A DNA stretch of 30,083 bases from a virus. The notes beneath the pieces are model-generated. The model saw only the letters and a list, made by a program, of their open reading frames with translations, searched no databases and was not told where the DNA came from. The position numbers were made by a program, and so were the translations under genes. Positions 315 to 27,279 of this stretch are shown here, piece after piece (positions within the stretch are counted from its first letter, which is position 1; the number at the start of each line of letters is the position of its first letter). The stretch spans positions 1-30,083 of IMG/VR virus record IMGVR_UViG_3300035681_000094. The stretch is one strand, 5' to 3'.

Positions 315-778
315 CAGGTCTGCACGTACTCGCAGTCGATGACGTTGCCCGTGGTTGTCGCGAGCACGGTGGCTGTAGCGGAAAGCCGAACCTCGATCGT
401 GAACGTCACCGCCTTGGCGGGCGTCGTGCTGTTAGCCACAACCGTCCAGACGAGCGCCGAGGGCGTGACGGGCAGCCAGGTATTAACCGTGCCCGTCGAA
501 AACGAGCCCGCCGTCGGCGTGATGCGCATCTGATAATTTGCACCGATCAGCGCCGTTGTCGGCGAGTAGTACCCCGGATTCGGCGTAATGGTGCCATCGA
601 TGGTATTGCCGTTGCCGACGACAGTCAGCGTGCCGTTGGTGTTCGCCGTCATAGTAACGGTCGAGGTTCCAGACGCCGCCAGGCGCTCGTTAGTCGAGGT
701 GAAGCGGTTGAGGAAAACGCCCGTACCGCCACCGCCACCGCCAACGGTGGCGCCCACCATTCGTGCCGCAAAGCTCAC
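314..778 (-). CDS. Small beta-rich virion/fibre-associated protein, unrecognised
   Basis: A 154-residue protein with no family I recognise. It begins with a short hydrophobic stretch and a run of glycines (about residues 13-18). The rest is Thr/Ser/Val-rich alternating sequence typical of beta-structured phage surface proteins. It has no signal peptide or convincing membrane segment. Its start overlaps the stop of the preceding head-binding fibre gene by 4 bases (ATGA), and its stop overlaps the endolysin start, so the three are probably co-translated. The position right after a receptor-binding protein suggests a fibre partner, cap or chaperone. That role is inference from context only. Confidence 0.6.
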
Positions 779-1671
779 GAGAAGTCCTTCAGCAGCGTGG
801 CGTACCAGAAACCGGTTGCCGACATATACGTTGCCACCAACAGGTCGACATCGTTAGGCCCGGTCGAGAGTACGCCAGCGCTCGCGCCTGGCCACTTGAA
901 CGTCGCCGGCCACGTCATCGTTCTGCTGCCGGTCGCGTCCTGCGTAATGAACCAGTTGATGGTCTGCCCGTTCTTCAGGTTCGAGAACGTCGGCGCGGTC
1001 GTGACGGTGCCCGACATCGTGACGGTGAAAACGTTCGAGAGAGCGCAATCAATCGCCATCGCCGTTGCGCTGAACGTCACCGCCACCGGGGTTGTCTGGG
1101 CGTTGCCCGTGATGGTCGTGCCGACGATGGTCGGATTCGTCGCGAACACGGCAGAGCCGGTGCCCGTCTCATCCGTCAACGCCGTGCGCAGGTTGGCGCT
1201 CGAGGGCGTTGCAAGGAACGCCGTCACGCCTGCGCCGGTGCCGCTGATGCCCGTTGATACGGGAAGGCCCGTGCAGTTGGTGAGCGTCCCCGAGGCCGGC
1301 GTGCCGAGCACGACCGCCGTCAGCGTTTTGTTGCTCAGCGTCTGCGTCGCGGTTGTCGTCACCACGTCGCCCGAGCCGCTCGCCGCCGTTGCCGCTGAGA
1401 ACACGAGCGAGCCCGTCTTGTCGAGGACGCGGATGCTGTAGTCGCTGTTGGCGAAGAGCCGCGCGGGCGAGCCTTCGTACACCGGATACCCGCCCGACGT
1501 GCGGATCGGCTGCGATGCCAGTAGCGTCAGCGACTGGTTGAAGTAGACGTTAATCGGGTTCGCCACCGGGTCGAGGTTGGCGGTGCCGATGTAGATATAA
1601 CCATCCTCGAGCGCCACGCCGTCGTCGTCGGTGAAGAGCGGGTAGGGCGATTCGACTAGAAGTGCGGGCAT
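775..1671 (-). CDS. Tail fibre/spike with P22 tailspike-like head-binding domain
   Basis: A 298-residue receptor-binding or adaptor protein. Residues 1-95 resemble the P22 gp9 head-binding domain: an NPxPLF-like opening, a GYIYIG strand followed by [10 protein letters not shown], a [14 protein letters not shown] stretch, and a [13 protein letters not shown] ending. Residues 100-185 hold the [10 protein letters not shown] and [15 protein letters not shown] elements common in phage fibres. Residues 190-298 form a beta-rich C-terminal domain with a TGSRTMTWP motif. Unlike P22 gp9 (about 666 residues) there is no beta-helix catalytic body, so it may act as a short fibre or as an adaptor. SD-like TGGAGA lies 8 bases before the ATG. 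It ends in an ATGA overlap with the next gene. Confidence 0.8.
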
Positions 1672-1711: not shown

Positions 1712-4510
1712 TTACTTTGCAGCTTGAGCTGGCGGATCATCTAAATCAATCACCACCATGGCTGGAAGCGACTTTGCCCCAGAAGCAACCAATGCATCAA
1801 AGCGATGGCCACCTTCCAGAACATACATTCCTTCAGAGTCTTGTACGACAATAAGCGGGTTGATCTCACGCGACTGCTGAATCTCTTGGGCTAATCGTCT
1901 AGTGCGATCATCCAGACGATCCATAGTGATTTTGTTAACGTATTCAGGATCGAAGGCCGATATTGGAACTTCTCGAACACCCGGCAAAACCTCGTAGTTT
2001 TCAAGGCTGGCGGATATAGACCCCGTGTTTGGTATTTCTTCGCGAACGACGCGACCGTCTACCGTGTCCCCTGCTGCGACAGTGCGTAGCGCCATTTGTG
2101 TCGGTAGATTAGCTTCTACAACAGCCTCAATCGCAGGGGTTGTCGTTTGTGGTTGGCGTGTAGCGCCGACGCTGGTTGTTGCAAAATTTTGCCTGCTTGA
2201 TTCGGATAAATTTTTATCTCTTTTGGGGCCAGCAAGCGCGTCCTTGACTCTTGCCCTTGTTTGTCGGTTTCTGACGTACTGGGTCGCCTCAAGCAAGACC
2301 TGTTTGCCAGGGATGGGCAGTCCCGCAAGTCCATACGTCAAAACAGTGTCCAAAGCGTTCATCATCGCGCTGCCGGTGTTCGACATATTGATTGCGCCAG
2401 GCGGCGCCGTATAGATGTCGAGCGCAATTTCGGAAAGATCGCGCAGCGTCTGCGCCTGCTTCTTCCCGTACAACGCCTCGAGCTTACCCGTCTGATCCAT
2501 CGCCTTGATGGTTTTGTGAAGCGCAGAAGGCGAAATCACGAAATTGCCGAGTTCATCTCTCGCGCTCGTTTGTGATGACTCCCTAATGAAGTCGATTCCC
2601 TTCGCCTTGAGATCCGCCCACGCCTGCTTGCCATCTGGTCCCGCAGAAATCAGCGTAGCGCGAACCTTGTTCATTTCTTCGACAGGCGAAAGACGGACGA
2701 CCTTATCGAAAACATTCTCGAGCGCTATTTTGCGCTCAGTGGTCTTGCCTTTCGTCCCCAGCAGCGCAGCCGTGAGACCGACATTCTCGAACTCCTCCGT
2801 ATATTGCCTGCGCAGCTTTCGGGCGCGACGGTAGATTTCTCCGCCCGCGGGTTCGGTTGAATCATCAATCGCCATCACGAGCTGCTTTGCGAACTTAGCC
2901 TCGCGCGAATCTTCCCAAGCGGTGGCTTGATTGACCCATTGACGCAAAATTTCCGCATTGTTAATGCTAAATTTTTGAGGGACAAGCATCCCAGACTCGT
3001 CTGTAACAACAGCGCCTAGCCTTTGCGCCTCTGCTCGTAATCCAGCAATAAGAGGCACGATACCAGACATATTGTTGAGATCTTCCAATTTTGTAGCGAG
3101 CGGAGCCATTAAAACAAGCTCTTCGGTTTCTCCCGCTTCTTCTGCCTTCTGGTACTCTGCGCTGATACGCTTTAAGGCAATATTTGCTTTATTCTCAATT
3201 GCCGTCGTCGTTGCTAAACCTATCTCCGGTTTGCTGAGCGTGATCGGCTGCATGGAATCAACCATAGCGTCGAAGTTCTGAAGCAGCGTGACCGACTGAT
3301 TCTGAACGCGCTCTCGAATCGGGGCTCCAATCTCTTGTAGCTTGGCGGTTTCTTTCTCAAACTGAAGCTGCGCAAAGTCTCTCGACGCTTGCCCGGTTGT
3401 AAGTGCAGACCCGCCAGTAAACGGAACCGGCATCATCTCCGCAGTCGTCACACGTTGCAGTGCCTGCTCTGTGGCGGCGGCACCAACGCTACCAGGCGGG
3501 GCGGTTGGCGCTGGGCGTCTGACGTTTTGCGTCGGGCGCGCTTGTAAAGACTCAATTGCGTTTTTGTCGATAACAACGTACTCGGTACGGCCGCGCGGGT
3601 CTTTTCCAACTACTAGCCCGTAGCCCTCATTAGTTAGTTGCTGAATGTAGCTTTCGGACAACCGCGTGATATCGCCCTCTTTTTGAAGAACCTTTGTTCC
3701 TTCTTTGATGTTGACGTTGTAAATGGTCGGCGTGCCATCTCCCATTCTGGCGTAGCCTTCCGCAGACGCCAAATCGCTTACGGGCGAAAGGTAGAAGCCG
3801 CCGTATTTGCGCCCCTGTTTTCCCTGCTTCTGACCCTCGCGCACGATCTGCACGCTATCAAGCGCGAGTCCAGCAGAAGGAGACCCGTGGATAAGCGGCA
3901 GGCTGCCGCCTTCAACAACGGCGTCGACCCCCTCTTGACGGGTGCGTGCTAACTCACGCATCTGACCTTGAGACCGCCGCATTCCGCCAAACTGTGTCCT
4001 TGCCTGCTGCACGGCGCCCTGCGCCAGCGCTTGCGGGACGGCGGTCACGGGAACGGGCGCGAGCTTTGCGGCTTCTGCGGCTTCGCCGACGGTTTGCAGC
4101 GCTTGCTGCGCAAGCTCCGTGCGCGGCTGGTAGGTGTAGCGTTGCAAGCCTTCCATCGCGCGTTGAGCCATCAAGTTTCCGCCAACCGACGTGCCATAGG
4201 TGCCGTTGCGAATGGATTCGAGAAGTCCTGCCACGCCGCCTGCGCCGTAGCCAAGCACGCCAGTAGTCGCGCCCGTCAAACCCGTAGCGCCCAATTCGAT
4301 GGGCGCGGTAATGGCTTGCGGAATCGACTGCCCGATAAATTGCCGCTGCGGCTGCGCGGGAGCGGGAGCAGGAGCGGCTGGACCTGCGCTGTCCGCGATG
4401 GCGAGAGCCTGTTCGGTGGCGATCATATTCGCAATGCGCTGCGCCGCTTTGGTATCACCAGCGTTGTGAGCGTTGCGAAGTGCTGTTTTAAGTTCTGGTA
4501 AGGTCGCCAT
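1712..4510 (-). CDS. Giant ejection protein in gp16 position with ADP-ribosyltransferase-like and ParB-like domains
   Basis: A 932-residue protein in the position of P22 gp16, so probably packaged in the virion and ejected with the DNA. Residues 1-35 (LxxALRxAxxAGDTxAAQRIAxMI) are an N-terminal helical motif seen in phage internal virion proteins. Residues 60-100 are Gly/Ala-rich and hydrophobic. Residues 205-325 look like an ADP-ribosyltransferase: HGS at 208-210, GGFYLSP with Y240, and RTEYVVID with E310, a plausible H-Y-E triad. Residues 330-830 are mostly helical and unassigned. Residues 845-925 match a ParB/sulfiredoxin-like fold (INPLIVV near 883 and EGGHRFDA from 899). Parts of the gene, for instance 2000-3700, look less GC-rich than the neighbouring tail genes. 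The ejection role is from synteny, the domain calls from motifs; activity is untested. Confidence 0.75.
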   Translation of the reverse strand: MATLPELKTALRNAHNAGDTKAAQRIANMIATEQALAIADSAGPAAPAPAPAQPQRQFIGQSIPQAITAPIELGATGLTGATTGVLGYGAGGVAGLLESIRNGTYGTSVGGNLMAQRAMEGLQRYTYQPRTELAQQALQTVGEAAEAAKLAPVPVTAVPQALAQGAVQQARTQFGGMRRSQGQMRELARTRQEGVDAVVEGGSLPLIHGSPSAGLALDSVQIVREGQKQGKQGRKYGGFYLSPVSDLASAEGYARMGDGTPTIYNVNIKEGTKVLQKEGDITRLSESYIQQLTNEGYGLVVGKDPRGRTEYVVIDKNAIESLQARPTQNVRRPAPTAPPGSVGAAATEQALQRVTTAEMMPVPFTGGSALTTGQASRDFAQLQFEKETAKLQEIGAPIRERVQNQSVTLLQNFDAMVDSMQPITLSKPEIGLATTTAIENKANIALKRISAEYQKAEEAGETEELVLMAPLATKLEDLNNMSGIVPLIAGLRAEAQRLGAVVTDESGMLVPQKFSINNAEILRQWVNQATAWEDSREAKFAKQLVMAIDDSTEPAGGEIYRRARKLRRQYTEEFENVGLTAALLGTKGKTTERKIALENVFDKVVRLSPVEEMNKVRATLISAGPDGKQAWADLKAKGIDFIRESSQTSARDELGNFVISPSALHKTIKAMDQTGKLEALYGKKQAQTLRDLSEIALDIYTAPPGAINMSNTGSAMMNALDTVLTYGLAGLPIPGKQVLLEATQYVRNRQTRARVKDALAGPKRDKNLSESSRQNFATTSVGATRQPQTTTPAIEAVVEANLPTQMALRTVAAGDTVDGRVVREEIPNTGSISASLENYEVLPGVREVPISAFDPEYVNKITMDRLDDRTRRLAQEIQQSREINPLIVVQDSEGMYVLEGGHRFDALVASGAKSLPAMVVIDLDDPPAQAAK

Positions 4511-5824
4511 TTACCGATCGCCAGTTAAATATTTTTGAACCAACTCGTCGTCTGTCATTTCTTGATCTTGCTCCCTCAAAACTCTTCGGCTCGTCTGTTC
4601 CGGCAAGCCGAGAGCCTTTCGGTACCGCTCTAATCCGGACATCATGACGTTTTCGATATCCGTCAGGTTCGAGATGATTTGCTCGGGAGTTTGCCTGAGA
4701 GACAAGCTCGCAATGTTCGTTTCAAGCCTTGCTCCTTCTGGGGCCGTCAGCGCGCCAAGACCGCGCATTTTTGCCACTTGGCTTAAAAACGCCTGCGACT
4801 TCAGCGTGTTGATTTTTTCTTCTAAGTTTGCCTCTTCCCCGCCAAGCGTAGGCGTCAGAGAATCAAGAGTTCCGGTGATGTCTTGAAGAATGTCAGGGTC
4901 TTTTTTGACGGTAGTCAGGATTGAGTTTATGTTTTGCAGAGCAACATCAATGTCCGCATATGCGTTTTCATTGGCGGCCGCCGCCTCTTTTACGGCTTGG
5001 TCACGGTTGAATTTTGCTGTCGAAATTCTTTCTGTCAGCTCCTGCTGGCGCAGAGCATCTGTTGTTTTTTTGCGCTCAGCTTCCATCGCGGCAATCGCTT
5101 GATTTTGCCTCGCAATACCCATGTCTTGCTGAATTTTTGAAATATTCCAGCCTGCTTGCGTTAGATCAGCCACCGCCTGCGATTCTGCGAATCTGGCTTG
5201 GACGGCAGCCTTGTCGGCGTCAGCTTTCATTTTTGCGATTTGAGCGCCGCTCGTCCCCTCTGCCACGCGCGCTTGCTCTAAAGCCAGTTGCGCCTTGCTG
5301 AACTGCTCAAACCTTGTCGGATCAAGCATAGCCAGTTGAAGCTGAAGCTTTGGAATCGCCGCCGCTACTTCTTCCGGAGAGCCTTCGCCCAATTCCTGCC
5401 GCAACAATTTAAGGGTAGAAACGTCTTGACCTGATTCCTCATTCGCTTGAATGATTCTATCGAGCCGATCAATCCCGACCTGCGGCGTTTTGCTTCTGAG
5501 CGCAAAAAGCGTCTGCATTCCTTCCGTGTATTCGGCGTCCTTGAGTTTATCGTCTAGGAACTTCCACTCCGCCCGAATGTTCTCGCCGAACTCTGGGTAT
5601 AGGTTCATCAGCTCGACGATGCGGTCGTCTGTCGGATTCATCCGCCACGCAGACATATCCGCCTGAAACTGGGCGTTCTTCTGCTCCAGCTCCCGCGCCT
5701 GCCTCTGCTGCTTAAACACCGCGCCGATTTTTAGCCCTTCGACCAGCGCTGTGCCGGGATCTGTAGGGGTAAGCCCCATCTGGCCGAGGTAGTCGATGGG
5801 AGCCGACATTGGATTGATGGCCAT
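4511..5824 (-). CDS. Ejection (pilot) protein, P22 gp20 position
   Basis: A 437-residue mostly helical protein. The N-terminus (DYLGQMGLTPTDPGTALVEGLKIG) is followed by long charged and Ala/Gln-rich helices. Likely coiled coils lie at about 30-60 and 155-290. There is no signal peptide or catalytic motif. Proteins of this build between gp7 and gp16 homologues in P22-like phages are internal DNA-transfer proteins thought to help form a conduit across the envelope. Its stop abuts the 932-residue gene start directly, and its start lies 2 bases after the gp7-like stop, so the three form a tight ejection-protein cassette. The role is inferred from order and composition rather than from a diagnostic motif. 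Confidence 0.7.
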   Translation of the reverse strand: MAINPMSAPIDYLGQMGLTPTDPGTALVEGLKIGAVFKQQRQARELEQKNAQFQADMSAWRMNPTDDRIVELMNLYPEFGENIRAEWKFLDDKLKDAEYTEGMQTLFALRSKTPQVGIDRLDRIIQANEESGQDVSTLKLLRQELGEGSPEEVAAAIPKLQLQLAMLDPTRFEQFSKAQLALEQARVAEGTSGAQIAKMKADADKAAVQARFAESQAVADLTQAGWNISKIQQDMGIARQNQAIAAMEAERKKTTDALRQQELTERISTAKFNRDQAVKEAAAANENAYADIDVALQNINSILTTVKKDPDILQDITGTLDSLTPTLGGEEANLEEKINTLKSQAFLSQVAKMRGLGALTAPEGARLETNIASLSLRQTPEQIISNLTDIENVMMSGLERYRKALGLPEQTSRRVLREQDQEMTDDELVQKYLTGDR

Positions 5825-5826
5825 GA

Positions 5827-6489
5827 TTACTTCTCACCCCAGAATGAACTTGCCAGTCCTGTGATTCCGCCAGCGCCGGCGATAGCGGAGCCGAGTTTGA
5901 TGGCGTCATTAAACGCCATGCGTTGCGCCATTCCCTGCGCCATAACGCTGCCAGCTTGCGCTGTGCCCTTGCCGAGCAGCAGGTTTCCGACGTTGACGCC
6001 CGTGTTCAATCCAGCTTCGCCCTGAAACCCAGATGACACCCGTCCGATCTCAGTGAGCCCGCCGAGCTGCTCGTACCGCTGCTCGATAAGCCTCTGGAGC
6101 ATCGCAGGCCGGAACTGCGCCAGCGCCGCCTGCACGTTACCGCCTCGCAGCCCGCCGGTGGCGCTTGCCTGCTGGAGAATCGCCTCCTCGCCCTGGCGCG
6201 CAAGAGCCTCAAGCTGAGGAGAAGCGGCGAGGGCGTCGATAGCTGCCTGCTCGGCTTCGGGTCCGCGCAACCCTGCCATCGCCATCTGCTGCTCGAGCGC
6301 AGGGGCGCCAGCTTGCACATACGGCGACATTAGCTTAATCAGCGCATCAAACTGCCGCCGAGTCTCCTCGATGCCAGCCTGCGCAGCCTTTGCCTGGATC
6401 TTGCCCGCGCGCTTGCCTGCGCTCGCGGCCGCAGACGAGCCGGTGATATCGCCGACAACGCCGCCGATCGCCTTGCTTATCGAGCCCAT
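5827..6489 (-). CDS. DNA transfer/ejection protein, P22 gp7-like
   Basis: A 220-residue internal virion protein. It begins MGSISKAIGGVVGDITGSSAAASAG, a glycine/alanine-rich hydrophobic opening I recognise from phage DNA-transfer proteins of the p32/gp7 group. An amphipathic helical middle contains GGLRGGN and AQFRP segments. A Gly-rich hydrophobic tail ends in WGEK. I chose the ATG at 6489 over an in-frame one 5 codons upstream because GGGAGG sits 7 bases before it, whereas the upstream ATG lacks an obvious SD. It overlaps the gp14-like gene by 13 bases. Presumably it is ejected early in infection with the gp20- and gp16-position proteins. Confidence 0.8.
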   Translation of the reverse strand: MGSISKAIGGVVGDITGSSAAASAGKRAGKIQAKAAQAGIEETRRQFDALIKLMSPYVQAGAPALEQQMAMAGLRGPEAEQAAIDALAASPQLEALARQGEEAILQQASATGGLRGGNVQAALAQFRPAMLQRLIEQRYEQLGGLTEIGRVSSGFQGEAGLNTGVNVGNLLLGKGTAQAGSVMAQGMAQRMAFNDAIKLGSAIAGAGGITGLASSFWGEK

Positions 6490-6950
6490 GATGTCGCCTC
6501 CCATTCGGGCCGGGTAATTCCCAAGACCCAGACGCCCTCTGGAGCGCCGTTGTATGAAAATGCGTCTCGCCGGAATCCCTCGATTCGGAATCCCAGCCGC
6601 AGACAGTAGTTGCGCGCCGTGAGCATCGACTCGAAAACGTAGGCGGTGACGCGCTGGACGATGGGCGAGTCGTTAAACGCCCAGTTGATGCAGGCATGAC
6701 CGAGAGGACGCGACGACTTCAGCGCTCGGCGCAGAAGGAGCGAGTGCAGCTCGGTCTCGGTGTCGGAGTATTCAATCGCCATGAATGCGCCTGCAAAGTC
6801 TCCATCGACCCACGCCGACAAGTATGTCACAAGCGGGTGCGTGATTGGAGCGGCGTCGTAGTAGTCATGGCTCAAGCGTTGAATGTACGGATCTGCGTAG
6901 ACCTCGGCGAGCTGCTCCGGCGTGATGCCTTCGGTGACGCAGCAGATCAA
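6477..6950 (-). CDS. P22 gp14-like head assembly protein (DUF2824, GNAT-like)
   Basis: A 157-residue protein matching the DUF2824/gp14 group by length, position between the gp26 and gp7 positions, and sequence feel. The fold looks like a GNAT acyltransferase: a GDFAGAFMAIEYS strand pair, an LGHACINWAFND helix, a VTAYVFESMLTARNYCLRLGFRIEGFRRDAF segment resembling the GNAT A/B motif end, then a GVWVLGITRPEW strand. In P22, gp14 is needed for infectious particle assembly; its chemistry is not known to me. The start overlaps the upstream 111-residue gene by 4 bases. Whether acetyl-CoA binding is retained cannot be told from this reading. Confidence 0.75.
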   Translation of the reverse strand: MICCVTEGITPEQLAEVYADPYIQRLSHDYYDAAPITHPLVTYLSAWVDGDFAGAFMAIEYSDTETELHSLLLRRALKSSRPLGHACINWAFNDSPIVQRVTAYVFESMLTARNYCLRLGFRIEGFRRDAFSYNGAPEGVWVLGITRPEWEATSWAR

Positions 6951-10555: not shown

Positions 10556-12514
10556 TCACAAATTGCCCTCGCTACCCCAAGTGCCTGGGGTGCCAGAAAC
10601 GGTGCAGAACCAGCCCTTGGGCTGCCCCACGACAGGTGTGGCCTGCTGCGCGCGGTCACCGATGGCCCAGGTTCCAACAGTCGGAACGGATGCGGCTTGG
10701 AAGTAAATCTTGTCCCCGAACCGCTGGGCGATGTAGACCACATCAGACCCCAGAGCCGCACCGCTGGCCTTGGTAACGCAACTGATAAAGACGTTATCCT
10801 GCACGGGCAGCACGGGCGCAGTCGTCGTGCCGGCCACCATGATGCCGTTCGTGCAAAGGTTGAAGACGTTGCGGTCGATGAACTGCTGCGAGAAGGCGCG
10901 GCCTGTCAGGTAGTTCGACTGATAGACGCCGTGGTAGAAGTTGCGGATCTGATTGTCAAGAACGTAGATTGGCGGGTTGCCGGCCCACTTCACGCCGACG
11001 TTGTTAGCCGAGTTGACCGTGTAGTCCTCTCCGAGCAAGAAGTTATTCGTGACGTACAGCGGAAGCGTTGAGGCTTGGAAATCAAGTTCAATTCCAGGCC
11101 GCGCAGTGGTTGCGCGTTCGATCTTGTTGTTCTTGATCGTGTGGCCGCCAACGGTAGCAACGGCTGCAATGGGAAACCATCCGATGTCCGAGCGCGTCGA
11201 GCCCGTAATAATGTTCCCGTGTACTTCGCAGTTAACCGCGTACCCGCTCAAGACAATACCGTGCCCCGCACTCGCGCGGATCACGTTGTTGCTCACCATC
11301 GTGTGAGCGAAGGCAGAGATTGCGCTCGCGGCGGCCGGGGAAACACGAATCCCGCACGCTGAAAATTCAAGGCTTTCTGAGAAGTCCTCGATAAGATTGT
11401 TGGCGATGATGTCCCCATCGCCTTGCGTGGCAACGTAAATACCGGCCGCCAAAGCAGGCTCAAGCGCGTTAATGCCGTTGCTCGTGCATTGGTTGCCGAT
11501 AATCTGCACACCGTCCCCAGAAGCCACGCCGCCTTGGTAATAGATGCCAGTTTCTCGCGTGTTGCGGCAGATGTTTCCAGACACCACATAGCGACCGCTT
11601 GTGCCGTTATACCCGACGATGACGCCGTGCCGGCGAAGGAGCGATGCAGGCGCAATTTCCACCCAAGTTGACGCATCCAACGTCACACAAATATTGCCCT
11701 CAACTAGCACATCCGAATCGACGCCGATGGCGTCCACATAGATACCCTGCGAGTTGTTTGAAAAGCAGAAGTTCTTCGTGATGTTGATGCGGCGAGAAGC
11801 GCCAGAAGTGCCGTACAGCACAATGTCGGCGCTGCTGGAATTGCTGTATGCGTTGCCCCAGATGTAGTTCCCTGTGATGTCAACGTTGGTGCTGTTGTTG
11901 CAATATACGCCGTTGAACTCAAAGCCGTGCAAGAAGCACTCCTGCACCTTGACGTTGCGCGCCCCGATGATCACAACGCCGTTGTTTTTCGTGAAGTCCA
12001 CGCCCCCGGAAGTCACACCATCTCCGCGCAGGCGAAGATTCTGGATCGTGCAGTTGTTGCCCGCCGCGAAGACGTTGCGTTCGCGCGTTGTCTGCCGAAT
12101 CGCAGACCCATAGCCGTCACCGTACACCATCGTGTCGGCGGGGATCGTCAGGGTGTTGGTGATGCGGTAGAAACTGCTGGACGCAGGGAAATACAGCGCC
12201 TTGCCGGTTGCTGCTACGAGTGCAGCAGCAATCGCCGCCGTATCATCCGTAACCCCATCCCCCACCGCCCCAAAGTCCTTGACGCTCACAACATCGCGCA
12301 GCTTCGCCTGCACGGTGCGAGAGACGGCGCCGGTGCCGGCGGGCGTGTACGTGATCTCGTCCGCGTTGTCGGGCAGATCCATCGTTTGCTCGAGATACGC
12401 CGTCAGCGTCGAGAGCGAGAACTTCCTCGCGTCGCCGTTCTCGACCGAGTACGTCGGCACCTGGTTGCTGGGCTCGAGCGTGTCGAGCGTGGGGAGTTGG
12501 TTTATGGTGGGCAT
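10556..12514 (-). CDS. Tailspike 1, pectate-lyase-like beta-helix
   Basis: A 652-residue spike, probably a trimeric enzyme that binds or cuts host capsule or O-antigen. Residues 1-65 form an adaptor (MPTINQLPTLDTLEPSNQVP) also present in the other two spikes. Residues 70-95 carry the KDFGAVGDGVTDDTAAI motif that opens many right-handed beta-helix glycan-binding or lyase domains. Residues 100-580 show beta-helix turns rich in N/G/I/V (VSGNICRNT, ITGNYIW, VSNNVIR). The last 55 residues (GTWAIGDRAQQ to TPGTWGSEGNL) are a small C-terminal module shared with spike 2. AAGGAG stands 5 bases before the ATG. Catalytic residues cannot be assigned by eye. Confidence 0.85.
   Translation of the reverse strand: MPTINQLPTLDTLEPSNQVPTYSVENGDARKFSLSTLTAYLEQTMDLPDNADEITYTPAGTGAVSRTVQAKLRDVVSVKDFGAVGDGVTDDTAAIAAALVAATGKALYFPASSSFYRITNTLTIPADTMVYGDGYGSAIRQTTRERNVFAAGNNCTIQNLRLRGDGVTSGGVDFTKNNGVVIIGARNVKVQECFLHGFEFNGVYCNNSTNVDITGNYIWGNAYSNSSSADIVLYGTSGASRRINITKNFCFSNNSQGIYVDAIGVDSDVLVEGNICVTLDASTWVEIAPASLLRRHGVIVGYNGTSGRYVVSGNICRNTRETGIYYQGGVASGDGVQIIGNQCTSNGINALEPALAAGIYVATQGDGDIIANNLIEDFSESLEFSACGIRVSPAAASAISAFAHTMVSNNVIRASAGHGIVLSGYAVNCEVHGNIITGSTRSDIGWFPIAAVATVGGHTIKNNKIERATTARPGIELDFQASTLPLYVTNNFLLGEDYTVNSANNVGVKWAGNPPIYVLDNQIRNFYHGVYQSNYLTGRAFSQQFIDRNVFNLCTNGIMVAGTTTAPVLPVQDNVFISCVTKASGAALGSDVVYIAQRFGDKIYFQAASVPTVGTWAIGDRAQQATPVVGQPKGWFCTVSGTPGTWGSEGNL
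12230..12343 (-). repeat. Tailspike N-terminal repeat, copy 1
   Basis: First of three dispersed copies of a roughly 114-bp block encoding the AGTGAVxRTVQ to DDTAAI segment. It is visibly similar at the DNA level to 14114-14227 and 16065-16178, so it could serve as a site for recombination between spike genes. Confidence 0.8.
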
Positions 12515-12523
12515 GGTGGCTCC

Positions 12524-14404
12524 TTACAAGTTACCTTCAGAAACCCACGTTCCAGGCGTTCCTGCAACGGTGCAACGCCAGCGTCGCGGACTTCCCACAG
12601 CCGGAACCGACTGCTCTGTTGTGTCTCCAACCGCCCAAGTCCCAGACGCTGGCGCAGACGCGGCTCTCCAAGTTATTGCAAGCCCTGTTCCTGAGTTTGA
12701 GACACTGCCACCGCCCGTCCCCCAATATACGCTTTGGTCAATAAAAGACCCGGTGCATGTCCCCGTCGTTGAAATGGCGGGGGTCGCCCCGCTCGTGTAA
12801 CTGCCACCGGAAACGCGAACTTGCGTGCAGGCATTTATTTGCAGAGCCTCAAAAGCGGGGGCATAGGCAATATTGTTCGTAAGCGCAGCTCTGGTAACAG
12901 ACGCTAACGAAAATGCGTAGTTGCTTGAGCCGGTGTTGACCGCTCTAACACCAGAAACTATAAGATCAGAAGTCGTGAATCCACCATTTTGTGCGGCCCT
13001 AAACGTAGGCGATGACGCGCTTTGATAGAACCCGCCCGTCACCGAAATGTTTGATGACGCAATGCCGTTTGCGTATTGAAAGAACGCGCTGCCTGTTCCA
13101 TAGACAATTGCGCTGTTTCCCGTCAATTCGACTCCGCTAGAAGCCTCGACGCGAATGCCGCTTCCCAACAGTGTCGCCCCACCGACGCCGGTTCCGTCAT
13201 TGGCGGACGGAATATTGATCACGTTATTGCAGACAACAGCGCCGCCGGCGGAAGAGGAAATGTTGATTCCGTCGCCTTGCAGCATTCCAGAAACAGTGTT
13301 GTTCGATATCAGCGGCTTTGTTACGCCAGATGCAACGCCGTTTATGCCAATGCCCGCGGGCGTCAACGTTCTATCCAAGGTGTGAGAGCAACAATTCACT
13401 ATCGAGTTGCCGGTTATTTGGATGGCGCCGATGTAATTACCAACGGCATAAATTCCAGCTCCGGATGATCGGTTAGTGCTGTACGAGCCTTGGATGTTTT
13501 CGATGTAGTTGTTTGTGACTTGAATATCCGTATCGCCAGTGCCGGCGGTGCCTGGAATGTAGACAGCAACCCCATAGGCTGTGTGCTGCCCGATTCTGTT
13601 GCCAGAAACGAGACACTTTTTAGGAAGCAGCCCGGCGTAAGGATCTTGAACTAGAACACCATGATTGCCACCGCCATAGCAGTAGTTGTTTAACACTTCA
13701 CACAGCGAGCAGTCGTTGTAAATACAAACGTCGGCCGCATCCTGAACCGTGCCAAGCCATCCCGAAAAGTGACTGTCTCTAACGGTGCAGCGAACGCAGC
13801 CGTCTAGCATAACGCCGGCCCATTGCATCCCTTCGAAAATGCAGTTTGAGACTTTGCTGTTAGTACAGCTGACAAACTTCACGCCAGCAACGTAGGCGGA
13901 CGAGCCAGCGGATGTCGCCTTGAATTTAACGCCGTCAATCTGAATGTTCGACTTTGACGTGGCGGAAAACAGAGAGATGTTGATAGTGCTGGTTTGAACA
14001 ACAGCCCCAAACGGTGCAGTTATTGATGTATTGCTGGACAACGTGATCGTCGAGGCGATTTTGTAAACGCCGGGCGGCATTAGCAATATGCCAGTGCTGT
14101 TCGCCCAGTTTTGAATCGCCGCCGTATCGTCCGTAACCCCGTCGCCTACCGCTCCGAAATCCTTCACACTAACGACATCCCGCAGCTTACTCTGCACCGT
14201 TCTTTGAACGGCGCCTGCGCCAGCGGGGTCGTAATCTATATAGGCGGCATTTTCAGGATCTGGAAACACCAGCGTGTCTTGGAAATAATCCACCAAGCTG
14301 TTGATCGACATCCTCCGCGCATCACCCGAATTCGGCGCATAGACGGGAATCTGGTCGCCGCCTGAAGGCGTGCCGAGGAGCGGGAGCTTGTTGATCGTCG
14401 GCAT
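12524..14404 (-). CDS. Tailspike 2, pectate-lyase-like beta-helix
   Basis: A 626-residue paralogue of tailspike 1. It shares the N-terminal adaptor (MPTINKLPLLGTPSGGDQIPVYAPNSGDAR), the SVKDFGAVGDGVTDDTAAI block (about 79-97) and the C-terminal module ending TPGTWVSEGNL. The central 100-570 beta-helix is unrelated in detail, with many N/S/G turns (VSNCIFEGM, VSGNRIGQH, VTNNYIENI, NVINIPSAND), consistent with a different polysaccharide specificity. Its central coding DNA (about 12850-14100) looks poorer in GC than its neighbours, as in recently exchanged receptor-binding domains. Its start lies 2 bases after the upstream coiled-coil/membrane gene. The substrate is unknown. Confidence 0.85.
   Translation of the reverse strand: MPTINKLPLLGTPSGGDQIPVYAPNSGDARRMSINSLVDYFQDTLVFPDPENAAYIDYDPAGAGAVQRTVQSKLRDVVSVKDFGAVGDGVTDDTAAIQNWANSTGILLMPPGVYKIASTITLSSNTSITAPFGAVVQTSTINISLFSATSKSNIQIDGVKFKATSAGSSAYVAGVKFVSCTNSKVSNCIFEGMQWAGVMLDGCVRCTVRDSHFSGWLGTVQDAADVCIYNDCSLCEVLNNYCYGGGNHGVLVQDPYAGLLPKKCLVSGNRIGQHTAYGVAVYIPGTAGTGDTDIQVTNNYIENIQGSYSTNRSSGAGIYAVGNYIGAIQITGNSIVNCCSHTLDRTLTPAGIGINGVASGVTKPLISNNTVSGMLQGDGINISSSAGGAVVCNNVINIPSANDGTGVGGATLLGSGIRVEASSGVELTGNSAIVYGTGSAFFQYANGIASSNISVTGGFYQSASSPTFRAAQNGGFTTSDLIVSGVRAVNTGSSNYAFSLASVTRAALTNNIAYAPAFEALQINACTQVRVSGGSYTSGATPAISTTGTCTGSFIDQSVYWGTGGGSVSNSGTGLAITWRAASAPASGTWAVGDTTEQSVPAVGSPRRWRCTVAGTPGTWVSEGNL
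14114..14227 (-). repeat. Tailspike N-terminal repeat, copy 2
   Basis: Second copy of the conserved block encoding AGAVQRTVQ to DDTAAI. It reads nearly like copy 1 and copy 3 with mostly third-position differences. Confidence 0.8.
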
Positions 14405-14406
14405 CT

Positions 14407-14610
14407 TTACTTCACCAGGTGATTAACGAACCAGGTTCCCAAGCCCCCGAGCGCTGACGCAATCGCCATGCCGGCGAAGATCCCGCCGTGACTGCGATTG
14501 GCGAGCGCGAGGAGCTCCTTCACGTCCTTCTGCAAGTCCTCGACCTGCGCTTCCAGCGTCTTTACCTGCCCGATCAGCAGTCCGAATTTCACGGGGTCGA
14601 CATCCGTCAC
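14407..14610 (-). CDS. Coiled-coil plus single-membrane-segment protein, probable lysis accessory
   Basis: A 67-residue protein. Residues 12-40 are a heptad-like helix (LIGQVKTLEAQVEDLQKDVKELLAL). Residues 43-63 form one Gly/Ala-rich membrane segment (IFAGMAIASALGGLGTWFV) ending in HLVK. This layout resembles XhlA-type haemolysin/holin-partner proteins. It lies 4 bases after a two-membrane-segment holin candidate, which supports a lysis role such as a second holin or an antiholin. Sequence identity to a named family is not certain from reading alone. An alternative is a small virion membrane protein. Confidence 0.6.
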   Translation of the reverse strand: MTDVDPVKFGLLIGQVKTLEAQVEDLQKDVKELLALANRSHGGIFAGMAIASALGGLGTWFVNHLVK

Positions 14611-14614
14611 GATA

Positions 14615-14809
14615 TCAGCGCTCCTTCAGCGGCATCGTCGTGATCGCGCGCAGCAACACGACACTGGTGGCAATCATGCACCCGACGAACGCCTGACCGG
14701 CGGGCGGGAGCGGTAGGTGGAAAACGAAGCCTTGCAAGACAGAGAGCACCGCCAGCGCGATAGAAAACTGGATGGTGCGGGAGTTCAGAAGGTTTTTTAG
14801 CGTGGGCAT
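14615..14809 (-). CDS. Holin candidate, two membrane segments
   Basis: A 64-residue protein with short ends and two hydrophobic helices at about 14-32 (IQFSIALAVLSVLQGFVF) and 37-55 (AGQAFVGCMIATSVVLLRA), closing with the TTMPLKER tail. The SRTIQ opening and the LRxxTTxPL ending are typical of small phage holin-like proteins, which form inner-membrane holes that let endolysin reach the wall. The start ATG at 14809 follows a 64-bp spacer. It is located between two tailspike genes rather than beside the endolysin, which is unusual. A hairpin-type class II topology is expected but untested. Confidence 0.7.
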   Translation of the reverse strand: MPTLKNLLNSRTIQFSIALAVLSVLQGFVFHLPLPPAGQAFVGCMIATSVVLLRAITTMPLKER

Positions 14810-14873
14810 GGGGTTAGGCGCCTTTATTTGTCAAAAAAAAATCAATCGAAAATCAACGCCTCGCGCTCATCAA

Positions 14874-16349
14874 TCAAGTATCAACAACGATTGTCTTGAC
14901 CGTGCCGTCGCCGAATTTGACCTTGAGATCCCCATCGGCTGTGTCAACGTATATCTGCGCCATGCCCGCCACCGTTCCCGGCGCAGTCATGCCATCGGCC
15001 AAATTGATCGCACCCATCCCTTCAAAAGTACCGACAAGGTTTCCGCTTGTGGTGTTGCCTCGGAACACGTTGTTGCTGCCGATGTAAAAGTTGCTCATCA
15101 CAGCGCCGGTGGCGTAGATGCCGGCGTCGTTGTCGTGGATCAAATTTTCGTCAACCCAAACTTCATCAACCGTGCCTGCGGTAGCTACCAGGCGGATACC
15201 GCTGTTGTTGGCATATGTGCGGCAGCCGACAATGCTGGCCGAGTAGTTACCTGCCCGCGTGACCTCCCAGTAGATGCCATTAACGGTTGCCTTGGCGTTG
15301 CCGTTGGTCACGCAATCACGAATATCGAGCGTGCTGACGCAACTAGTGCAAATATTGTAGCCATTGTTGTTACGGGCTTGAACACCGACAAGAAGAACGT
15401 CGTTCATGCTAGACGTGGCGTCGCAGCCGATGACAACGCCTCCGCGCAGGCTTGACGCAGCGACGCCATTGCCTTGATATTGCCCGCCCAAAACGCTAAG
15501 GCGTGCCGCGTTGAACGACGACTGCGCGTAAAAGTGCAGCCCAGCGCCGGAGCAACCCTCGGCTCGGCAGTTGGCAACCTCTATGTCCGTGCAGTTGCCA
15601 ATATAAAAGCCGTGATGCAGGCTTGAAGAGCCGATGCCCGTGCTGTAGCAGTCGCGCATAACGGCCCTCGTGACTTTGTTCAGATGTACGCCCTGCTGGG
15701 TGTTGTCGTCGCTGAACACGTCCTGGATCAATACGTCGTCGCAGTTAATTGAAAGACCGACCGTCACAGTGCTAGCGAGTCGGTAACCCTGTATGTGGCG
15801 TACACGCACGCGTGAGCAGTTGTTGAAAACTATGCCGTCCACCGACGTGTTGTCGGGCCCCTCGATGCGCAGGCGCTCGATCGTCACGTTGTTGCCGGTG
15901 GTAGAAAACACGTCGGCCGTGCCGCTGGTCTTAAGCAGAATGGTGTTTGGGCCATCGCCTCGAACTGTGGTGCCTGCGGGAACAGTGAGCGCGGAATCCG
16001 TACCGATCAGATAGATTCCTGCGGGGGCGTACACAGACGCAGCGCCGCTATTCAGAGCCGCCTGCACTGCGGCGCGATCATCCGTAACCCCGTCGCCTAC
16101 CGCCCCAAAGTCCTTTACGCTCACCGTCTCCCGCAGCTTGCTCTGCACCGTGCGCGTGACAGCGCCCGTGCCCGCCTGCAAGAAGTTAACCTCGTCCGAG
16201 TTGTCGGGCATGTCGAGGTTGTTCTGCATGTAGGTCTGCATCTGCCCCACCGACACCCGCCTCGTATCGCCGTTCGACTCGTCGAAGATCGGCAGACTAT
16301 CGCCTGGGAGAACCTCGCCGATGGGAGACAGGTTAATAATCTGCGGCAT
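14874..16349 (-). CDS. Tailspike 3, pectate-lyase-like beta-helix
   Basis: A 491-residue third spike. Its adaptor (MPQIINLSPIGEVLPGDSLPIFDESNGDTRR, DMPDNSDEVNF) is closest to that of tailspike 1. Then come SVKDFGAVGDGVTDD (about 77-91) and a shorter beta-helix with VTIERLRIEGPDN, VRVRHIQGYR and TDIEVANCRAEG turns. The C-terminus is a different module from spikes 1 and 2: GMAQIYVDTADGDLKVKFGDG then VKTIVVDT, a short beta-hairpin found on many phage spikes. It starts in a TGATG overlap with the gp4-like gene. It probably binds or degrades surface glycan; the substrate is unknown. Confidence 0.85.
   Translation of the reverse strand: MPQIINLSPIGEVLPGDSLPIFDESNGDTRRVSVGQMQTYMQNNLDMPDNSDEVNFLQAGTGAVTRTVQSKLRETVSVKDFGAVGDGVTDDRAAVQAALNSGAASVYAPAGIYLIGTDSALTVPAGTTVRGDGPNTILLKTSGTADVFSTTGNNVTIERLRIEGPDNTSVDGIVFNNCSRVRVRHIQGYRLASTVTVGLSINCDDVLIQDVFSDDNTQQGVHLNKVTRAVMRDCYSTGIGSSSLHHGFYIGNCTDIEVANCRAEGCSGAGLHFYAQSSFNAARLSVLGGQYQGNGVAASSLRGGVVIGCDATSSMNDVLLVGVQARNNNGYNICTSCVSTLDIRDCVTNGNAKATVNGIYWEVTRAGNYSASIVGCRTYANNSGIRLVATAGTVDEVWVDENLIHDNDAGIYATGAVMSNFYIGSNNVFRGNTTSGNLVGTFEGMGAINLADGMTAPGTVAGMAQIYVDTADGDLKVKFGDGTVKTIVVDT
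16065..16178 (-). repeat. Tailspike N-terminal repeat, copy 3
   Basis: Third copy of the conserved spike block (AGTGAVTRTVQ to DDRAAV), lying near the gp4 junction. It has DNA-level similarity to copies 1 and 2. Confidence 0.8.
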
Positions 16350-19578: not shown

Positions 19579-21042
19579 TCATGCAGCAATCCCGACAGCG
19601 GCAAGCAATGCGCGCGAGTCCATCTCGTCGATGATCTCGAGGATGGCGATGATCTCCTCCTCCTCGCGGGCGAAGATCTCGACGACCTTGGTCGCAACCT
19701 CGACCTCTTCGCGCAGGCGCGACTCGCGCTCAATGCGTGCCACCTGCTCGCGCAGCTCATCAAGCGACGCGCGGGCGGCCTCGTACTCTTCCACCAGCTC
19801 GCCAAGGCGCTGCGCCGATTCAGACTGCGCCTTTTTCAGCACGCGCTGCGCCGCCTTGACCTGCTCGGCCACCTCCTCTGTGCGCAGCGACTCCTCGAAC
19901 CTGGCGCGCTCGTTCGCCCAGCCGCGGCGCTTGGCCGTCTTGCCTGGTCCGCCGCCTGCAAGCGGCGTGATGTTGGCGATCAGCTCAACGGGGAAGCCGG
20001 TGATGTTGTACGCGCCCGGCGTCGTTTGCAGTACGAACTGCCCCGCTGTCGCCTTCTCAAGATCGACGGGCGAGCCGGTGATGTCGTAATCGCCGGGCGT
20101 CGTGTCGAGAGCGCGACCCAGCAAGAGCGAAGGCGAGCTGCCCGTGATGTCATAGTCGCCGGGCGTCGTATCCAGCGCGCGGCCGAGCAGAAGCGACGGT
20201 GAGCTACCAGTGAGGTCGTAAGCACCAGGCGTCGTGCTAACGATGCGAGCAGCCAGCAGCGACGGTGAGCTGCCGGTGATGTTGTAGGTGCCGGGCGTGG
20301 TGTCGAGGGAGTAGGCGTTAGCTGCGGTAGATTGCAGCGGGAAAATGAACCGCTGCGGCTGATAGAGTTGCCACGGGTTCTGCGTCAGCGCGACAAGTTC
20401 CGAGTCGCTAAGGCTCCGGTTCCAAACCCAATACGCCGCAAGATCGCCAAGACCGTCAGTTACCGCGTTCTGACCGCCAATGTTGTTGATGGTGACGCCA
20501 GTAAGCGTTCGCGTATGTGCAGCAGTCCGCTTTTTCTCACCATTCCAAAAAACGGCGGCTTCTGCGCCAGTTCCTGATGACGAGCGGAAAGCAATGTAAA
20601 CCTGTTCTAGGGCAGGGACTTGCGGCCCGACCGTGGACGCAATAACGTCAGTTCCAGTGATTCGGATCTGAGCGTTGCCGTTGATTGTGGAGACGTTAAA
20701 TAGCGTCGTGCCGGTTGATGCTGCGCCGGTACGCCATGTGCCGCCCCAGTTCGAGCGGGTTTTCGGAACGGCCGCCAAAATGGTCAGGCTCCCGTTCGTC
20801 GGAACCGTCCACTCATCACCGGCAGCGTAAGAGAACGGCCAGTTGGTTCCGACGCGGGAAATCAGATTTCCGCTTGTCCCCGGCTCGATAAGCGCCGTGG
20901 TAAGCGGCGCATTAGTGACGAGATCGCGCTTAGAAGTAGCAGCGCCAGCCCTGACGAGCTGGGCCGTCGCGGGGTGAGCCCAGTTGATCCTCGGTGGATA
21001 CTTCGGCTGCGAAGTCCACTGGGCTTTAGGGAGAATGATCAT
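19579..21042 (-). CDS. LamG-like / tandem-repeat / coiled-coil structural protein
   Basis: A 487-residue mosaic protein. Residues 45-225 look like a LamG/concanavalin-A-type jelly roll (GSLTILAAVPKT, TLFNVSTINGNAQIRITG, YIAFRSSSGTGAEAAVFWNG) closing with AAYWVWNRSLSDSELVAL and NPWQLYQPQ, a typical phage LamG ending. Residues 244-352 contain five repeats of about 22 residues around TTPGxYxITGSSPSLL. Residues 375-470 form a long charged coiled coil. There is no signal peptide. It overlaps the preceding 169-residue gene by 4 bases. P22 has no counterpart at this place. It may decorate the head or act as a glycan-binding fibre; both are inference. Confidence 0.75.
   Translation of the reverse strand: MIILPKAQWTSQPKYPPRINWAHPATAQLVRAGAATSKRDLVTNAPLTTALIEPGTSGNLISRVGTNWPFSYAAGDEWTVPTNGSLTILAAVPKTRSNWGGTWRTGAASTGTTLFNVSTINGNAQIRITGTDVIASTVGPQVPALEQVYIAFRSSSGTGAEAAVFWNGEKKRTAAHTRTLTGVTINNIGGQNAVTDGLGDLAAYWVWNRSLSDSELVALTQNPWQLYQPQRFIFPLQSTAANAYSLDTTPGTYNITGSSPSLLAARIVSTTPGAYDLTGSSPSLLLGRALDTTPGDYDITGSSPSLLLGRALDTTPGDYDITGSPVDLEKATAGQFVLQTTPGAYNITGFPVELIANITPLAGGGPGKTAKRRGWANERARFEESLRTEEVAEQVKAAQRVLKKAQSESAQRLGELVEEYEAARASLDELREQVARIERESRLREEVEVATKVVEIFAREEEEIIAILEIIDEMDSRALLAAVGIAA
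19963..20313 (-). repeat. Tandem 66-bp coding repeat (five units)
   Basis: The TTPG cores fall at protein residues 248, 270, 292, 314 and 340, giving a 66-bp period for the first four units and 78 bp for the last. Units three and four are almost identical at the protein level (DTTPGDYDITGS), suggesting recent duplication; copy number may vary. Confidence 0.9.
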
Positions 21043-26090: not shown

Positions 26091-26520
26091 CTGCCGCCTT
26101 GACGAATCGAATGCTGATATCCGCCTTTACCGGGTTCTCTTCGTCGCCGGCATGCGTGATCTTGTCGCCGTACTTCTTCGGCGCCAGCTTGGAGAGCAGC
26201 CACTTGCGGCTATCGACCTGCAAACGATGCTTCTGCACCGCCGCCCAGTCCTTCTTGCCGTCCGGCTGCACGCCCACGTCGGCGTCGCTCAGCTCGAGAA
26301 TCTCCTGCGCCATGCGCTCGATCAGATCCTCTCTCGCGCGCGCGTATTCTACAGCAAGTTGCGGATCCTCATCGACCCAAAACCCGAACGTGCTCTGCGC
26401 AACGCCCGCTGCTTGACACGCCTTGAAGGCGCTTTTGCCTTCCCGCATCCCCTGAAGCACCGCATGAATCTTGCGCTGCTTTTCCTCCTCTTGCTCTGGC
26501 GTCTTAGTTCTGCGCGCCAT
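26083..26520 (-). CDS. terS: Terminase small subunit
   Basis: A 145-residue DNA-recognition subunit of the packaging machine. A helix-turn-helix is visible at about 31-50 (AFKACQAAGVAQSTFGFWVDED), a central helical oligomerisation region follows (AVEYARAREDLIERMAQEILEL), and the KHRLQVDSRKWLLSKLAPKKYGDK segment is typical of this TerS group. I start at ATG 26520 because GAGGTGG lies 7 bases upstream; the in-frame TTG five codons earlier would have the SD inside the gene. It overlaps the DUF3310 gene by 17 bases and TerL by 8. Confidence 0.9.
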   Translation of the reverse strand: MARRTKTPEQEEEKQRKIHAVLQGMREGKSAFKACQAAGVAQSTFGFWVDEDPQLAVEYARAREDLIERMAQEILELSDADVGVQPDGKKDWAAVQKHRLQVDSRKWLLSKLAPKKYGDKITHAGDEENPVKADISIRFVKAADA

Positions 26521-26737
26521 CGCCAGCCACCTCAATCAATTTATCAAGATAATGGCGCGCCTTGTGTAAATCCTGCACGCCGCCCTTGTCCTTCCATCTG
26601 GTCACATATTTTACAACATTGCCTTCAAAAAATCCGAGCTCGTTCGCCGCGATGAAGTCCCACGGCTGGACGGTCTTGCCCTTGTAGTGATCCCCGCCGA
26701 CCTGGCGGGAGTTGGGGTCAGCGTCCTTCACGACCAT
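26504..26737 (-). CDS. DUF3310 protein
   Basis: A 77-residue protein matching DUF3310: VGGDHYKGKTVQPWDFIAANELGFFEGNVVKYVTRW, then KGGVQDLHKARHYLDKLIE. The family is widespread in phages and is sometimes labelled a nucleotide kinase on thin evidence; no P-loop is visible here, so I do not adopt that name. Its context between HNH and TerS is common. It overlaps the HNH gene by 20 bases at its start and TerS by 17 at its end, pointing to one co-translated packaging block. Confidence 0.88.
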   Translation of the reverse strand: MVVKDADPNSRQVGGDHYKGKTVQPWDFIAANELGFFEGNVVKYVTRWKDKGGVQDLHKARHYLDKLIEVAGDGAQN

Positions 26738-27137
26738 CCTCCTTCATCTGCGCCATGTTCGGCGTGACCATATTATGCCATCGGGCATGGCATGTTCTGC
26801 ATAGCAGATCCTTCGGCCAACGCTCCGCCTCATCGCCAAAAATATGTTTCGGCGCCCAGTGATGCATTTCAGCACCAACGGAATTACATACCCTGCACAT
26901 TATAGTTATATTCTTCCTTTCATAAAATTGCGCCGTTTTTGTTTTCACGTATTTCATCGGGCCATTATTTATTGCGTACTGAATAGCCGTCCTGCGCTTA
27001 ACGTACTTCGTCATGACGCGCCCGCAGTCGTCGCAGTATTTCGGGTAAACGGTAGCTCCAGAAGATATATTCGTGATTCCTATTTTAATATTCTCTGAAT
27101 TGCAGTCAGAGCACGTGTCCTTGGCTGTCCCACTCAT
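26718..27137 (-). CDS. HNH endonuclease with an extra zinc ribbon
   Basis: A 139-residue metal-dependent nuclease. An N-terminal CxxC pair (C9/C12 and C35/C38) looks like a zinc ribbon. The HNH core follows: CRVC (81-84), MHHW with H92/H93, and CRTCHARWH (C113, C116, H117, H121). HNH proteins near terminases often nick or cut DNA for packaging. The frame extends to an ATG at 27236, but that would place the TGTCCCA array inside the gene, so I choose ATG 27137; its SD (GGAAA) is weak. The coding DNA is clearly AT-richer than its neighbours (about one third GC at 26881-26940), suggesting separate ancestry. Confidence 0.85.
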   Translation of the reverse strand: MSGTAKDTCSDCNSENIKIGITNISSGATVYPKYCDDCGRVMTKYVKRRTAIQYAINNGPMKYVKTKTAQFYERKNITIMCRVCNSVGAEMHHWAPKHIFGDEAERWPKDLLCRTCHARWHNMVTPNMAQMKEDGREGR

Positions 27138-27172
27138 GTTGTCAAATTTCCGCACATCGTGGGTGGGACAAA

Positions 27173-27197
27173 GGACACACCCTATAGGTGTGTGTCC
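27173..27197. promoter_or_regulatory. Inverted repeat GGACACAC-N9-GTGTGTCC
   Basis: Perfect 8-bp arms flank a 9-base centre that itself contains the palindrome CCTATAGG. It sits at the left edge of the TGTCCCA array; the right arm shares bases with the first repeat. It could be an operator or an origin hairpin. Function is unproven. Confidence 0.55.
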
Positions 27198-27273
27198 CAA
27201 TTTGTCCCACTCTGCCTCGTCTTGTCCCGAGGACATTTGTCCCAGTTTGTCCCAATTTGTCCCAGTTGTCCCA
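27193..27273. repeat. TGTCCCA iteron-like array
   Basis: Seven same-direction copies of TGTCCC(A/G) start at 27193, 27203, 27223, 27238, 27248, 27258 and 27267; only the 27223 copy ends in G. Spacings are mostly 9-10 bp, about one helical turn. Most copies are preceded by TT. Two outlying copies lie at 27126 (same direction) and 27164 (opposite direction). The array fills the gap between the helicase stop and the HNH start. The layout is like an iteron cluster for a DNA-binding protein, i.e. a replication origin, packaging site or transcription operator. Confidence 0.8.
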
Positions 27274-27279
27274 CCCCAC

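Follow-up and report, generated by a model that had tools for sequence, protein, structure and literature searches.

Why should a gene that occupies the position of ejection protein gp16 in a P22-type head and injection module encode domains of a host-modifying type? The question is raised by IMG/VR virus record IMGVR_UViG_3300035681_000094, analysed here over its full length of 30,083 bases (the window), in which an open reading frame on the minus strand (1712-4510), running from an ATG to a stop codon, encodes 932 residues. The initial annotation, made from the sequence alone, had placed this gene in the gp16 position and proposed that it carries an ADP-ribosyltransferase (ART) domain and a ParB-like C-terminus; the reading frame is confirmed and the P22-type gene order holds. 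Comparison with relatives resolves the protein into four modules, all on the minus strand: an N-terminal module (N-module; residues 1-171, positions 3998-4510), an ART cassette (residues 181-329, positions 3524-3970), a core with hundreds of viral relatives (residues 342-760, positions 2231-3487) and, after a linker also recognised from the relatives (residues 761-807, positions 2090-2230), a C-terminal ParB/sulfiredoxin cassette (residues 808-932, positions 1715-2089). The main point, which goes beyond that annotation, is that the cassettes are exchangeable and sit at a recurrent slot, and we consider it probable that the gene encodes a P22-type gp16-position ejection protein, used as a chassis that delivers exchangeable effector cassettes.

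Structure prediction indicates that residues 197-329 form a real H-Y-E ADP-ribosyltransferase domain. The region matches phrog_32895 (1.2e-36), and the catalytic residues picked out in the initial annotation, H208 (in LIHGS), Y240 (in GGFYLSP) and E310 (in RTEYVVID), are correctly placed, occur in H-Y-E order and are invariant in all 18 aligned relatives. E310 lies in the stretch EYVVID, which we take to resemble the catalytic strand of PARPs. An AlphaFold2 model built with the alignment of the 18 relatives had a predicted local distance difference test score (pLDDT) of 83.8, and all 50 of its listed Foldseek matches in the PDB have the ART fold (diphtheria-toxin-, exotoxin-A- and cholix-type enzymes, PARPs and MbcT; best match E 1.8e-3, probability 1.00); its viral fold matches include proteins named ART-PolyVal. 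The subfamily is another matter. The score against PF18760 (ART-PolyVal) is 17.8 bits, where the cut-off is 31.2, and nine of the 18 relatives match that family weakly, with none reported above the cut-off. The ART clade described from polyvalent proteins uses H-Y-D, with Asp as the third catalytic residue (PMC5512222), as expected of PF18760 and Tox-ART-HYD2, whereas the window ART has the invariant Glu E310. On these two grounds we rejected membership of PF18760 and regard the window ART as belonging to a sister subfamily. We also note that, towards the left end of Pseudomonas phage PspYZU01, a group of small genes includes one (L011:5352-5717) for a stand-alone 121-residue ART relative with 34% identity.

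The C-terminal cassette is likewise modelled as a real ParB/sulfiredoxin domain, spanning residues 808-932. INPLIVV (883-889) and EGGHR (899-903), the motifs that had suggested it, lie where they were reported, and R903 of EGGHR, the expected active-site Arg of the fold, is invariant in 5 of 5 sequences. A profile of the five ParB tails matched ParB proteins of the PDB at 1.4e-6; the model had a pLDDT of 80.7, and nearly all of its listed Foldseek matches are ParB, Noc, KorB, SbnI or sulfiredoxin. PF02195 (ParB_N) matched residues 867-920 at 1.9e-4, with 21.9 bits, below the curated cut-off of 26.3 bits; the best relative, L201, scores 24.7 bits. Both predicted folds agree with the initial annotation, whose refuting condition, models of the two segments resembling neither ART nor ParB folds, did not arise; among the Pfam families it had pointed to, PF02195 was found only below its cut-off and ART-PolyVal was not borne out. 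At tblastn sensitivity, no relatives of the ParB tail were detected in a phage collection. The related ddrB-ParB family (PF18763) was considered and set aside, as it had no Pfam match in the window and was found only in a distant core-family protein (L199). A stand-alone partition role is also unlikely: no ParA-like gene was seen among the annotated open reading frames of the window, and the domain lies within a structural gene. The domain may be a nuclease, an NTPase switch or a DNA clamp; for such ParB domains, the authors of the polyvalent-protein survey favour a role as nucleoside triphosphate (NTP)-regulated DNases (PMC5512222).

Comparison with close relatives indicates that the ART cassette has moved horizontally. 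The sister phage L003 has a core 87% identical in protein and lacks the ART cassette, at whose position it has 24 residues; L003 and a second sister phage, L005, have a common short linker at this position, so that it is simpler to suppose that the window lineage gained the ART. The cassette matches genes for giant polyvalent proteins (L013 and L014) with 83% DNA identity over 448 gap-free bases (codons 181-330), and with 87-88% identity in protein. The ParB tail has its own matches among giant proteins (L200, 77%; L201, 67%; L036, weaker). A chimera of sequence assembly was rejected: an independent contig, L002, carries the ART-core junction, and the region that the two have in common is 99.9% identical in amino acid sequence and 97.6% in DNA; the junction of N-module and ART is known from one contig. 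In L005 (5613-9080), the core gene has been replaced by one for an unrelated 795-residue protein (phrog_5880), followed by a 359-residue gene that consists of the N-module, conserved up to the N-terminus, and the ParB tail only. The ratio of nonsynonymous to synonymous substitution rates (dN/dS) for the N-module of L005 against the others is 0.10-0.16, so this gene is not obviously decaying, and its existence hints that the N-module alone is enough for loading.

The initial annotation had noted that ART and ParB domains are parts of phage polyvalent proteins, and here the link is one of direct homology for both cassettes. The best explanation of the sequence matches is that the two were probably drawn from a pool of effector cassettes on which giant polyvalent proteins in other phages also draw. 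These giants point to a common site of exchange. A homologous segment of ~250 residues, ending near residue 600, is common to L013 and L014 (which carry the ART), L200 and L201 (ParB) and L205 (a GNAT domain), and in all five the cassette directly follows it; L020 (ART) also has the segment, and L031 has it in part. Although the giant carriers were found using the cassettes as queries, an upstream segment common to three cassette types is not forced by the search. In many other ART carriers, the Klebsiella giants among them, the domain stands in a different setting, not after the shared segment, and in L014 a separate, true PF18760 domain adjoins the ART cassette. If a polyvalent protein is one in which at least two conflict-type domains occur in a single virion-linked polypeptide, the window protein has the domains (ART and ParB), with a virion link by synteny only; none of the hallmark hub domains of polyvalent proteins (MPTase, LPDs, SNF2, methylase) had a Pfam match in the 932 residues.

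The core family has a recurrent insertion slot of its own. Scans of viral contigs with the core returned 274 and 407 relatives, and among the best 80 of each we found 119 distinct complete proteins with a median length of 640 residues, 216 before the core and 8 after it. Recognisable extra domains occur in 7 of the 119. The window protein has both its insert before the core and its C-terminal addition, and L003 has a C-terminal ParB; L054 has an N-terminal SLT transglycosylase (5.8e-7, above cut-off), L110 a weak GNAT-like insert, and L103 and L124 an insert with a PIRLDENMRVIDGNHRHAAA motif, which by the motif only has a ParB/sulfiredoxin-like look. L199 combines a zeta toxin (1.3e-6) with ddrB-ParB (7e-38), both above cut-off. 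Three pairs of relatives show clean inserts just before the core, at the position of the ART: L124 against L126 (flanks 96% and 91% identical), L110 against L117 (98% and 77%) and L103 against L173 (85% and 71%). Genes for gp20-like and gp7-like proteins lie upstream in L054, L103, L110 and L124; L199 does not have this arrangement and is a weaker case. No relatives of the L103/L124 and L110 inserts were found in the phage collection at tblastn sensitivity; the GNAT domain of the giant L205 is 61% identical to the L110 insert. We lean, by a little, towards the broader proposal that the gp16-position ejection proteins of these podoviruses serve generally as an injection chassis, whose cargo sites are a fixed slot just before the core and the free ends, and in which ART, ParB-type and GNAT cassettes are swapped from the pool that fills one homologous slot of the giant proteins, as a 'polymorphic effector' system for the DNA-injection machinery.

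This sporadic distribution, together with the fact that L003 manages without an ART, is also what would be expected if the cassettes were functionless passengers of illegitimate recombination. We regard that as very unlikely, given the pattern of substitution. Against L014, the ART has a dN/dS of 0.08, which indicates purifying selection, with 53.5 of 75 changes synonymous and the catalytic triad intact; much of this divergence may stem from the polyvalent branch, so selection on the ART in the present context is less certain. The ParB tails of the window, L003 and L005 differ by 6 synonymous and 0 replacement changes, and L005 has kept the ParB tail with the N-module as a separate gene.

The assignment of the chassis itself follows from gene order. 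The P22-type head and injection module of the window comprises the small terminase (PF20901), portal (PF16510), coat (PF11651), gp10 (PF11134) and gp7 (PF25688) genes, and continues with gp20 (phrog_2534), the 932-residue gene and the gene for a tailspike with a head-binding domain (PF09008); the gp7, gp20 and 932-residue genes lie on the minus strand. The gp7 homologue (5827-6504) matches PF25688 at 1.5e-9, above cut-off, and phrog_598 at 2e-33; the gp20-like gene (4511-5824) matches phrog_2534 at 6e-27, and the ATG of the gp16-position gene comes directly after its stop codon. Downstream lies the tailspike or fibre gene (775-1671, minus strand), with the P22-type head-binding domain at 1.4e-8. 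The order gp7, gp20, gp16 position, tailspike holds across the family, with a gp20-like gene directly upstream in 97 of 112 loci and a gp7-like gene in 92 of 112. The core has no match to any named family by hhalign, Pfam or PHROG, and the PHROG search with core-only family members also gave none, so the ejection role rests on synteny: the initial annotation's P22-type ejection protein agrees with the neighbourhood and finds no counterpart in detectable similarity to P22 gp16. Such a silent core would also fit some other internal or assembly protein in this position, a reading we consider quite improbable, since most relatives keep the gene in this place, behind homologues of gp7 and gp20 and ahead of a tailspike, since similarity between the gp16 proteins of different podovirus groups is known to fade below detection (PMC8954989), and since L054 adds an N-terminal transglycosylase, as in T7 gp16. 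In P22, the ejection proteins exit the virion and form a trans-periplasmic conduit, and N-terminal fragments of gp7 and gp20 assemble into heads (PMC8402733). The N-module, with a Gly/Ala-rich hydrophobic stretch at ~77-97, is our candidate for the virion-loading or ejection part of the window protein.

Within this neighbourhood, the gp20-like gene itself is strongly diverged from those of L003 and L005 (~43% over ~190 residues), while the adjoining genes are more than 90% identical, and from sequence this set of ejection genes resembles a hot spot of mosaicism. Bacterial genomes seldom contain prophage relatives (4 of 399 and 2 of 399, with the seed genomes counted in), and the first scan of genome contigs gave no match. 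One 39.7 kb plasmid record of Acinetobacter seifertii (CP061693.1), of phage-like size, encodes a core-family relative with 32% identity (26162-27490), and is possibly a phage-plasmid.

Under the ejection-chassis reading, the N-module and the conserved core would make up an ordinary ejection protein, into which the ART cassette was inserted at the boundary just before the core and to which the ParB/sulfiredoxin cassette was added at the C-terminus. Judging from its position, the protein would be loaded into the head alongside its gp7- and gp20-like neighbours, and it would leave the virion with or before the DNA, carrying both domains to the host interior, where they would arrive ahead of any phage gene expression. 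There, at time zero, the ART may modify a host macromolecule with the use of NAD+, by analogy with T4 Alt. The ParB-type domain, whose targets would be DNA or nucleotides, may bind or cleave DNA under the control of NTP. The gene sits among late structural genes, so the enzyme would also be made in the producing cell, and a real and packaged fusion might exert its effect there or in the virion (late in infection, in superinfection exclusion or in genome protection) rather than after injection; the ParB-type domain, for one, could act on packaged DNA. We give this a small chance, because the cassettes are common to giant polyvalent proteins, which as a class have been proposed to travel in the virion and to be injected (PMC5512222), and because intracellular expression alone does not readily explain why they recur on an ejection-position protein.

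Several results nevertheless weigh against an ejection protein that delivers enzymatic cargo. The Foldseek template modelling scores (TM-scores) of both models are modest (~0.5 for the ART and ~0.4 for ParB). The hhalign comparison of the core with P22 gp16 (phrog_770) gave a probability of 1.8% with a shallow profile, and thus no detectable similarity. Hydrophobic segments are weak, with a best 21-residue mean hydropathy of ~1.1 (residues 77-97) against a peak of 1.2 in P22 gp16, and any membrane insertion is conjectural. Among the relatives, the ParB reading of the L103/L124 insert found no database support, as its PDB search gave no match, and the L110 GNAT insert is below Pfam cut-offs, with weak and non-specific PDB matches. 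Finally, P22-type ejection proteins must go through the portal channel, after which folded cargo would have to refold.

The main known examples of virion-borne effectors are T4 Alt, the P1 Dar proteins, the N4 RNA polymerase, MuF fusions and the giant polyvalent proteins, and the window protein resembles several of these in part. With the polyvalent giants (DarB/PLxRFG-type; Klebsiella phages LASTA and SopranoGao) it shares the ART subfamily (up to 64% amino acid identity to the Klebsiella proteins), the ParB cassette of L200/L201, expression from phage late genes and several effector domains in one polypeptide; unlike them (typically 2,300-3,900 residues), it has 932 residues, lies in the P22 position and lacks helicase, methylase, peptidase and LPD domains. 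With P22 and T7 gp16 it has in common a gene position that follows gp7 and gp20 and precedes the tailspike, and domain mosaicism is known in their class, as in the T7 gp16 transglycosylase (PMC8954989), but the window protein has no detectable similarity to P22 gp16 and differs from it in its host-modifying-type domains. Like T4 Alt, it is a phage ART predicted to be head-carried and injected; Alt, however, is an internal protein that stands by itself and belongs to a different ART clade, whereas the window ART is fused to an ejection-position protein and is of the H-Y-E (PARP/diphtheria-like) type. MuF polymorphic toxins and MuF-ART fusions similarly join a virion-associated module to exchangeable effector domains, ARTs included (PMC9503650), but here the delivery module is an ejection-position protein and the cargo is internal as well as terminal; an immunity gene was not seen, with no search aimed at one. 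Already published are ARTs and ParB domains in polyvalent proteins (PMC5512222), MuF-ART fusions (PMC9503650) and transglycosylase swapping among ejection proteins (PMC8954989); the last review describes the swapping of peptidoglycan hydrolases and not ART or ParB cargo. In a literature search that lay mostly outside subscription papers, we found no description of P22-type ejection proteins with ART or ParB cargo, and none of the shared cassette slot.

What sets this carrier apart is that it is apparently part of a P22-type DNA-delivery apparatus, and that natural pairs with and without cargo exist. Three questions can therefore be put to a direct test: what part of an ejection protein brings cargo into the head, whether folded cargo passes through the conduit to the cytoplasm, and what the targets of such early enzymes are. 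If the chassis reading is true, the stripped 359-residue version in L005 would mark the minimal loading signal. Through the cargo slot, length outliers of the core family also offer a simple route to new injected phage enzymes.

Elsewhere in the window, three consecutive tailspike- or depolymerase-like genes with pectate-lyase and beta-helix domains and similar N-termini (10556-16349, minus strand) occupy the part of the head module that lies between gp10 and gp4. A structural protein gene with no Pfam match (19579-21042, minus strand) contains a 66-base repeat present 3.5 times (TTPGAYNITGSSPSLL units) at 20074-20307. A short TTTGTCCCAG tandem repeat (27235-27273) is found just upstream of an HNH-like gene and downstream of a Prim-Pol/AAA replication gene.
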